Source: an uncultured bacterium (GTDB lineage: Bacteria > Verrucomicrobiota > Kiritimatiellia > PWTM01). Taken from it: a DNA stretch of 64,000 nt. The DNA lies in contig CALLFZ010000010.1 in assembly GCA_938010045.1 (NCBI GenBank), positions 209,546-273,545 of the forward strand, in the 5' to 3' direction. Numbering within the stretch: position 1 is the first letter of the stretch; every line of letters starts with the position of its first letter. A program made the translations under genes and the position numbers. A model generated the notes under the pieces. That model saw nothing but the letters and a program-made list of their open reading frames with translations. It was not told where the DNA came from and did no database searches. Below, piece after piece: positions 1,116 to 46,629 of this stretch.

Positions 1116-1162
1116 GTCCAATCGTTGGACACATCCGGCGTTGGCGTGTCCAAACCTTGGAC
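1116..1162. repeat. Tandem 15-bp palindromes GTCCAA-N3-TTGGAC, 17-nt gap (32-bp period)
   Basis: GTCCAATCGTTGGAC at 1116-1130 and GTCCAAACCTTGGAC at 1148-1162, between convergent genes. Confidence 0.85.
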
Positions 1163-44083: not shown

Positions 44084-44806
44084 TTACCATCGACCGAGCG
44101 CCGCCTGTAGATCCGCCGGCACCGCCGCGAGATTCGGTGCGAGCCAGTCTGGCCCCGCGGCGGCCAGGACGTCGCGCGGAAAGGTCGTCCACAGCGCGAG
44201 GCATCGCATGCCCGCCGCGCGCGCCGCTTCGATGCCCGGCACGGTGTCCTCCACCACGAGGCAGTACCGCGGAGGCACACCCAGCCGCCGCGACGCCGCA
44301 AGAAACACGTCCGGCGCCGGCTTGTTGCGCGCGACCTCCTCCGCGCCAACGAGCGCATCAAACCAGGCGGACGGAAATCGGATCGCGTCCAGGATCGCCC
44401 GCAGCTTGATCCGATCCGCACTCGTCGCGACGGCCGTCCGCCGGCCAGCTTCGCGGATGCCGACGATGAATTCGCGCGCGCCGGGCAGTGGCTCCAGGCG
44501 ACCGGGGAGCATCGCTCGAAAGATCTCGTAGGTTCGGTCGCGGTCCCGCGGCAGCACCGCCCGCACGCCGTGGTGCGCGGCGACGCCGCCAAAGTACGCC
44601 TCCGAGCCCCGCCCCATGAACGGCCGGAACTCGTCAGGCAACGGTGACACTCCGTGCAGCTCGCGGAACATCGCGCAGGCCGCCTCGGCCATTAGGTGTT
44701 CCGAATCGCACAGCACGCCGTCCATGTCGAAGATCACCGCGCGCAACTCCGCCGACGCTTGCGCGTGCGTCGTGTCCAGCCTACGTTCGGGGCATGAGCG
44801 CATCAC
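44084..44806 (-). CDS. HAD-superfamily hydrolase (beta-phosphoglucomutase-like)
   Basis: VIFDMDGVLCDSEHL, VATSADRIKLRAIL, NKPAPDVFLAASRRLGV, VVEDTVPGIEAARAAGM; start may be internal (TTG at 44746) because of divergent overlap. Confidence 0.85.
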   Translation of the reverse strand: MMRSCPERRLDTTHAQASAELRAVIFDMDGVLCDSEHLMAEAACAMFRELHGVSPLPDEFRPFMGRGSEAYFGGVAAHHGVRAVLPRDRDRTYEIFRAMLPGRLEPLPGAREFIVGIREAGRRTAVATSADRIKLRAILDAIRFPSAWFDALVGAEEVARNKPAPDVFLAASRRLGVPPRYCLVVEDTVPGIEAARAAGMRCLALWTTFPRDVLAAAGPDWLAPNLAAVPADLQAALGRW

Positions 44807-45012
44807 CGTGGGTCACGCTGCTGGCGGTCGCGATCCTGCTCGGCCTCTGTTGTGCCGGCATGGGCCTGAGTGTCCTGCTCGGACGGCGCCGTCGCATCGG
44901 CGCCTGCGCATGCGAGTTCGATGCCAACGCGGCCCGCCGCCGCGCGCGGGGCTGCGCCGATCCCGCCGTCGGCTGCGAAGCAACAAACTGCGGCGCGAAG
45001 GCCCCGCGCTGA
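44794..45012 (+). CDS. Small Cys-rich single-TM protein
   Basis: ATG 44794: MSASPWVTLLAVAILLGLCCAGMGLSVLLGRRRRIGACACEFDANAARRRARGCADPAVGCEATNCGAKAPR. Confidence 0.5.
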   Translation: MSASPWVTLLAVAILLGLCCAGMGLSVLLGRRRRIGACACEFDANAARRRARGCADPAVGCEATNCGAKAPR

Positions 45013-45056: not shown

Positions 45057-45126
45057 GTCCAAGGATTGGACAGCACGGCCGCGGATTCGTCCCAGCCTTG
45101 GACAACCACCGCCTCTTCGCGTCCAA
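45057..45126. repeat. Second GTCCAA-N3-TTGGAC palindrome array, 32-bp period, third unit decayed
   Basis: GTCCAAGGATTGGAC 45057-45071, GTCCCAGCCTTGGAC 45089-45103, half-site GTCCAA 45121-45126. Confidence 0.85.
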
Positions 45127-45168
45127 TGCCGGGCGCCCCACCACCCGACCCTCCCGTCCAGCGCCCGT

Positions 45169-46629
45169 TCACTCCGGCGCCACCAGGTCCATGCGGCGCG
45201 CGGCGGCGACCTCGTCCAGCCGCCCCACCGGTGTGGTGACCGGCGCAAGCCGCAACGCCTCCGGATCGCGCCGCGCCAGTTCGAGACACTCGATCACCGC
45301 GTCGCAGAAACGGTCGAGCGTCTCGGGCGATTCGGTTTCCGTCGGCTCGATCATGATCGCTTCGGGCACGTGGATCGGGAAGTACACGGTGGGCGGATGC
45401 ACGCCGCGGTCAATCAACGCCTTCGCGAGGTCCAGCGTGTGAAGGCCCATCGCCGTCAGGCGGCGGCCGCTGAACACGCACTCGTGCATGCAGCGGCCGG
45501 GGTTGACCGCATCGAGGTGCGGCCGCAGGCGCTCTTGCACATAGTTCGCGTTGAGCACAGCCGCCGTACTCGTCGCGCGCAGACCCTGCCGGCCGAGCAG
45601 CCGCAGGTACGCGTAGGCGCGCACGAGCACCGCGAAGTTCCCGTAGAACGGCGCGATGTAGCCAATGCTCTTCGGCGCGTCGTAGTCAAGGAAAAACGTC
45701 CCATCGCCGCGGGCGCGCACGCGCGAAATCGGCAGGTAGGGCCGCAGCCGCTCGACGACGCCGACGGGCCCAGCGCCGGGGCCGCCCCCGCCGTGCGGCG
45801 TCGAGAACGTCTTGTGGAGATTAACGTGACAAACGTCGAAGCCGAGCTCGCCGGGCTTCACTCGGCCCAACAGCGCGTTGAGATTCGCGCCGTCGTAGTA
45901 GAGCAGACCGTCCACGGCGTGAACCGCCGCGGCGATTTCGCGAATGCGGATCGGGAAGGCGCCGAGCGTGTCAGGACAGGTGAGCATCACGCCGGCGGTG
46001 TCGGGCCGGATCGCCGCGAGCAGTCGGTCCACGTCCATGTGGAAATCGCGGCGCGACGGAATCGAGACAACGTCGTAGCCGCCGAGCGCCGCGCTGGCGG
46101 GGTTCGTGCCGTGTGCGGCGTCCGGCACGATGATGTGGGTCTTCCGGTTGCCGCGGTCGCGATGATAGGCGGCGATCAGCATGATGCCGGTTAGCTCGCC
46201 GTGCGCGCCCGCGAGGGGCTGCAGCGTGAACTCCGCCATACCGCAGATCTCGGACAGCATGCGCTCCAGCTCATAGAGCAGCTGCAGCGCGCCCTGCGTG
46301 AGCTGGCCGCCGTGCCGGAGCTGCGGCCAGAGCGGATGGAGGTTCGAGAAGCCCGGCAGTGAGGCCGCCTGCTCGCCGGCGCGCGGGTTGTACTTCATCG
46401 TGCACGAGCCGAGCGGATAAAAGTGCGTGTCGACCGAAACATTGCGGCGCGAGAGGCCGGTGAAGTGCCGCACGACGTCCAGCTCGGAGAGCTCCGGCAG
46501 CGCCGCGGGCCGCGTCCGCAAAAGGCCCGGATGGTCCTCAAGGGGCACGGGGCCGATCGGCTCGGGCCAGCGGATCGCGCGGCGGCCGGGTACGCTCTGT
46601 TCGTAGATGGTCGGCGAGGTTGACGTCAT
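45169..46629 (-). CDS. gcvPB: Glycine dehydrogenase (decarboxylating) subunit 2
   Basis: YPLGSCTMKYNPR, AAHGTNPASAALGGYDVV, CHVNLHKTFSTPHGGGGPGAGPVGV. Confidence 0.94.
   Translation of the reverse strand: MTSTSPTIYEQSVPGRRAIRWPEPIGPVPLEDHPGLLRTRPAALPELSELDVVRHFTGLSRRNVSVDTHFYPLGSCTMKYNPRAGEQAASLPGFSNLHPLWPQLRHGGQLTQGALQLLYELERMLSEICGMAEFTLQPLAGAHGELTGIMLIAAYHRDRGNRKTHIIVPDAAHGTNPASAALGGYDVVSIPSRRDFHMDVDRLLAAIRPDTAGVMLTCPDTLGAFPIRIREIAAAVHAVDGLLYYDGANLNALLGRVKPGELGFDVCHVNLHKTFSTPHGGGGPGAGPVGVVERLRPYLPISRVRARGDGTFFLDYDAPKSIGYIAPFYGNFAVLVRAYAYLRLLGRQGLRATSTAAVLNANYVQERLRPHLDAVNPGRCMHECVFSGRRLTAMGLHTLDLAKALIDRGVHPPTVYFPIHVPEAIMIEPTETESPETLDRFCDAVIECLELARRDPEALRLAPVTTPVGRLDEVAAARRMDLVAPE

Follow-up and report, generated by a model that had tools for sequence, protein, structure and literature searches.

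The stretch of DNA analysed here, referred to as the window, comprises 64,000 nucleotides of the 3.2-Mb draft genome of an uncultured member of the Kiritimatiellia (G000). A 16S search gave no match, and the class is taken from a single-cell genome of the same genus, SCGC AH-151-A22, which is described as Kiritimatiellaeota (PMC6424206). Two short palindromic units lie at 45057..45071 (GTCCAAGGATTGGAC; core TCCAA-GGA-TTGGA, 10/10 core positions) and at 45089..45103 (GTCCCAGCCTTGGAC; 9/10), the second exactly 32 bp after the first. A possible third unit occupies 45121..45135 (GTCCAATGCCGGGCG). Its left half-site is complete and its core matches at 7/10 positions, which is at chance level in the register test described below. 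These features, located from the sequence and by pattern search, are assigned to neither strand. The first-pass annotation had reported the palindromes at 45057 and 45089, the half-site at 45121, the 32-nt steps and the 17-nt gaps of differing sequence, all of which can be read from the DNA as described. The array is flanked by a 72-amino-acid ORF on the plus strand (44794..45012), which has no Pfam match and is conserved in the closest relative, G001, and by the convergent gcvPB gene for glycine dehydrogenase subunit 2 (45169..46626, minus strand; PF21478, E=1.9e-23), with orthologues in 9/9 family genomes. The product of the small ORF has an N-terminal hydrophobic stretch and a RRRRIGACACEFD tail, and the ORF adjoins gcvPB in G001 too.

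Another array, the first in the window, consists of GTCCAATCGTTGGAC at 1116..1130 and GTCCAAACCTTGGAC at 1148..1162. Both units match the core at 10/10 positions, are assigned to neither strand and are again exactly 32 bp apart. This array precedes a minus-strand gene at 1204 with a match to PF04768, and both window arrays are placed between convergent genes. A search of the window for GTCCNNGNNTTGGAC with at most one mismatch yields eight strand-matches at four sites (1116, 1148, 45057 and 45089), whereas shuffled versions of the window average 1.2 and never exceed 5. In G001, the site orthologous to 45057 carries GTCCAAGGATTGAAC and a 7/10 unit at exactly +32, beside the 72-amino-acid ORF and gcvPB. 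The array is absent from the orthologous position in seven more distant relatives.

These arrays belong to a large family. Genome-wide, GTCCNNNNNTTGGAC gives 81/78 strand-matches in G000 versus 9/4 for the reversed control, and perfect palindromes number 34/32 (66) versus 0. Pairs of cores separated by N19, with up to two mismatches, occur 95 times and never in the reversed control. The proposal that the recurrence exceeds coincidence is therefore upheld by about 95 pairs in the genome, and its suggested check, a search for more copies in this and sister genomes, is strongly positive. Chance origin of the arrays is ruled out by the shuffled and reversed-pattern controls. A 15-bp palindrome had been proposed as the unit. 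It does recur, but the real core is the 13-bp, 5-3-5 inverted repeat TCCAA-NNN-TTGGA, and the outer G/C is genus-specific and often replaced.

The register of the family is rigid. In 3-kb stretches around the strict sites, nearly every strict site has a partner at exactly +/-32, often differing in an outermost base only. The 77 arrays of G000 comprise 66 with two units, three with three and eight with one; 69/77 have an in-register partner, and the 32-bp register is their defining feature, as the first-pass annotation had supposed (68 steps of 32 bp, three of 31 and one of 33). Arrays in the sister genome G003 reach seven units. In about 200 kb from each of two distant genomes, G096 and G013, the autocorrelation of site distances peaks only at 31-33 bp and its multiples, a period equal to three helical turns. 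Position profiles from these two genomes show a centre base that is nearly always G or C and a consensus that continues on either side into a short run of A/T.

The spacers between units are not conserved in this way. In G000 their mean best match is 10.51 of 17 positions versus 10.52 in column-shuffled controls, which is to say that they are unrelated; the same test gives a slight similarity excess over shuffles in G096 and G013. Tandem duplication of one repeat is thus rejected as the source of the arrays, since the G000 spacers are unrelated and neighbouring loops are hardly more alike than expected.

A decayed third unit in register had been claimed at 45121, and the evidence for it is at chance level. 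For the 62 two-unit arrays of G000, a full half-site appears in 1/~124 flanking registers, presumably the one at 45121, and the mean score at the flanking register equals background. The third unit is also absent from the orthologous site in G001. The chance of at least one such half-site among the flanking registers is estimated at roughly one in five, and chance is the likeliest source of the half-site at 45121. The flanking-register scores likewise give no support to decayed third units as a feature of arrays in general. Genuine longer arrays that keep the register, with three to seven units, number three in G000 and 14 in G003.

Gene calls from a home-made codon-usage gene finder, which are approximate, place 20 arrays of G000 between divergent genes, 33 between co-directional genes, 10 between convergent genes and 14 apparently inside genes. 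Corresponding counts are 10, 26, 12 and seven (inside or borderline) in G096 and seven, 23, five and three in G013. These two genomes are 85% coding, and their arrays are mainly intergenic. Placement between convergent ORFs, which had been read as characteristic, is true of both window arrays but is not general in G000, and G096 and G013 are mixed in the same way. About half of the convergent and divergent gaps sampled in G096 hold arrays (12 in 22 and 10 in 17, respectively). In co-directional gaps, arrays usually follow closely on the stop codon of the first gene and lie at a greater distance from the start of the second. Their neighbours are housekeeping genes of many kinds (gyrB, nusA, carA, guaA, proS, lipA and others) with no single pathway, most names being taken from a reading of translated sequences instead of a domain search. 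In two distant families, an array lies upstream of a LexA-like gene whose HTH is unusual (L021 in G000 and L168 16128 in G096). A few such coincidences are expected at this array density, and the gene is a doubtful owner of the arrays.

Some arrays persist at orthologous positions. Intergenic examples are L013 (G000)/L083 (G001) and L046/L087. Arrays inside coding sequence are shared by orthologues of a methyltransferase gene (L005, L143 and L110), a nucleotidyltransferase gene (L037 and L111) and a gene upstream of gyrB (L052 and L139). Five pairwise orthologous comparisons give identities of 99/100 in the core, 59/95 in the spacer and 321/600 in ungapped flanks, the core value being biased upward because all pairs were picked for carrying arrays in both copies; two of the five share L005. 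By these alignments, half-sites are under constraint at the DNA level and arrays persist at some orthologous sites. Arrays inside coding sequences align gap-free and keep to the reading frame, which points to substitution as their origin. In G006 the same methyltransferase peptide is encoded with palindromes weakened by synonymous changes, and arrays inside genes can therefore arise by substitution in place.

The family is widespread in the Kiritimatiellia. All nine family genomes contain core pairs with at most two mismatches (36 to 126 each; control 0). Across the class, pairs with at most one mismatch are found in 81/346 genomes, with a maximum of 1,644 in G096. A degenerate pattern matches in 100 of the 346 genomes and at least five times in 76 genomes from 13 families (a hand count from the degenerate-pattern table), with a control near 0. 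Copy number per genome thus ranges from 0 to about 1,600. Counts fall to control level, with a maximum of 4, in the 257 genomes examined from other classes of this phylum. When genomes without any counts were scanned with no preset motif, arrays of TCCAT-NNN-ATGGA with a 31-bp step (G032) and of TCCGA-NNN-TCGGA with a 32-bp step (G316) emerged. The inner half-site bases therefore differ by lineage (AA, AT or GA), and TCC/GGA and the register are kept. Finding such variants in zero-count genomes would fit a scenario in which site and protein co-evolve. In family f15 (G022, G045 and G035), many contig ends carry arrays and spacers return almost without change, a pattern that suggests recent copying of arrays and longer arrays that broke the assembly.

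The sequences themselves establish the family and its register, the bias towards intergenic positions, the constraint on half-sites and the drift of inner bases between lineages; from these we infer protein binding, cooperativity, wrapping and an architectural function. The arrays are probably double-stranded DNA operator sites for a cooperative dimeric DNA-binding protein, rows of which would act on chromosome architecture. A protein dimer would recognise each TCCAA-NNN-TTGGA inverted repeat, and two or more dimers would dock side by side on the same helix face, once every three turns (31-33 bp). The rigid three-turn step combined with free spacers implies that adjacent dimers touch on one face of the helix. 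Rows of docked dimers probably bend or wrap the DNA. The sites are scattered chromosome-wide, mainly at the borders of genes in every orientation, and generally keep some distance from start codons. They would then serve as boundary or nucleoid-organising elements able to modulate transcription, not as a switch for a single pathway. This function is judged from location: chromosome-wide spread at all kinds of boundary, set back from starts, makes an architectural role the most likely one.

Three other explanations deserve comparison with these architectural operator rows. The arrays could act at the RNA level, as tandem hairpins at mRNA ends that serve as bidirectional terminators or stabilisers. 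Each unit is self-complementary, many arrays are located just 3' of stop codons, and the window arrays fold somewhat better than shuffled sequences (z about -2.1). However, the fold predicted for the 45057 array joins bases of one unit to the other instead of closing each palindrome on itself. No T-run or terminator-like site (a GC-rich stem followed by a T-run) was found between 44900 and 45300, and the window arrays have no match in Rfam, two tRNAs being the only known RNA families identified. The 462 units from four genomes contain 142 broken core pairs and 0 compensated ones, and the outermost base pair of the units varies independently on the two sides, which argues for recognition as duplex DNA. 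Arrays are also equally common between divergent genes. A bidirectional terminator for convergent genes is ruled out by divergent and co-directional placement together with the absent compensation, and RNA-level action is highly improbable.

Alternatively, the family could be a proliferating intergenic repeat of the REP/BIME/REPIN type, spread by transposase-like activity and settling harmlessly between genes. Like these elements, the arrays are palindromic, intergenic and present in many copies; their number differs strongly between genomes, the f15 spacers and contig ends would fit recent spread, and arrays occur on some phage contigs. REPs carry a GTAG or CGTC tag beside a 20-40-bp palindrome (PMC3733652), whereas no such tag is conserved in the position profiles of G096 and G013. 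Furthermore, the arrays differ from mobile repeats in that the conserved unit spans merely ~13-21 bp, the register stays fixed across G000 spacers that are unrelated beyond column composition, constraint operates at the DNA level, and the gap-free, in-frame arrays within genes point to substitution. A mobile origin is accordingly unlikely. Slightly less probable still is that the arrays serve a single conventional transcription factor (for example GntR/FadR-like, LexA-like or Lrp) as operators, through which it would control adjacent promoters across a large regulon. Palindromes of the 5-3-5 type fit several dimeric repressors, and the LexA-like gene has an upstream array in both G000 and G096. 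On the other hand, many arrays lie between convergent genes or at 3' ends only, and some are inside coding sequences. Their neighbours, as read from translations, share no common pathway, few genes with an array are common to distant genomes, and up to about 1,600 copies are present.

Among described systems, operators of Lrp/AsnC regulators are the best structural analogue of the arrays. Lrp/AsnC proteins bind clusters of 13-15-bp semi-palindromes with centres two or three helical turns apart and wrap DNA (PMC2995911, PMC10201364), and the arrays have this same clustering, unit length and spacing. The operators of Ss-LrpB, BarR and FL11 resemble them in being imperfect 13-15-bp palindromes that are clustered on one helix face at two-three-turn spacing, where linked dimers wrap the DNA (PMC2995911, PMC10201364). 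Known Lrp/AsnC operators differ in serving few promoters, whereas tens to >1,000 arrays per genome are found here in all gap types. The arrays also consist mostly of two units that are strong sites instead of degenerate ones.

An Lrp/AsnC-type regulator is a tentative candidate for the cognate protein of these DNA operator rows, one that we consider doubtful. Almost all members of the class encode a conserved Lrp of about 158 residues, found for instance at L233:1312-1785, which its domains and its relatives in the PDB identify as an HTH regulator. PF01037 has two matches in G000 and is matched in 74/76 array-bearing genomes versus 212/270 others. The array-bearing genomes without a match, G314 and G315, are both incomplete (85-88%). 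Family f2 and most of f37 have neither PF01037 (Lrp/AsnC) matches nor arrays. The class-wide Lrp is also found in genomes without detected arrays. None of 30 Lrp loci has an array within ~1.5 kb of the gene, a neighbourhood that lends no support to an autoregulated Lrp as binder. One array is located upstream of the Lrp gene in G096, which is unsurprising at that genome's array density. The Lrp recognition helix is changed in f18, which uses TCCGA, but it is also variable among TCCAA lineages, and in f12 it hardly differs between TCCAA and TCCAT. Because Lrp occurs without arrays, its gene has no array nearby in the 30 loci and its helix does not track the half-site cleanly, the identity of the protein is far less certain than the class of mechanism, which remains probable.

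Other systems share individual traits with the arrays. The matS/MatP, parS/ParB and SlmA sites are short dimer-bound palindromes scattered over the chromosome, some of them inside genes. They are single sites in defined chromosome regions, whereas the sites here form tandem phased arrays. CRISPR loci likewise have palindromic repeats separated by spacers that differ in sequence but share one length. Their arrays are long, confined to one or a few places in the genome and built of near-identical 21-48-bp repeats, in contrast to the 15-bp units, mostly two per array, at ~77 loci of G000. The array spacers are, to our knowledge, shorter than any CRISPR spacer.

No paper in the open-access literature searched contains the motif in literal form, and REP surveys and topical papers within it hold no description of paired palindrome arrays. 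Within that literature the family appears to be undescribed, as the first-pass annotation had suggested. Constrained, phased arrays kept class-wide despite drift of the half-site code imply a dedicated and apparently undescribed DNA-binding system, whose role may be to organise the chromosome or to delimit transcription units on it. We know of almost no molecular biology for the phylum-level group of the host. A more far-reaching possibility, advanced tentatively, is a sequence-programmed bacterial chromatin, in which a class-wide protein would form phased dimer rows on hundreds to >1,000 intergenic arrays to mark or insulate transcription-unit boundaries. The half-site code would drift between families as the geometry stayed fixed. 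The DNA-binding system implied by the arrays would offer a clean test case of a binding protein and >1,000 target sites changing specificity together.

Related sequences are also found outside cellular Kiritimatiellia genomes. On a phage contig (L325/L326; IMGVR_UViG_3300035698_006241) that encodes terminase, portal, head protease and major head proteins, 18.9 kb contain three arrays (TTCCAACGGTTGGAA and others) with 31-bp steps, and phages of Kiritimatiellia may use or mimic host sites. Pairs of GTCCCA-NNN-TGGGAC spaced by 32-33 bp are present on contigs labelled as Bacillota and Olsenella MAGs (L092 6221, L093 4706, and L096 6761 and 7765). They could represent a relative of the array system or binning contamination.
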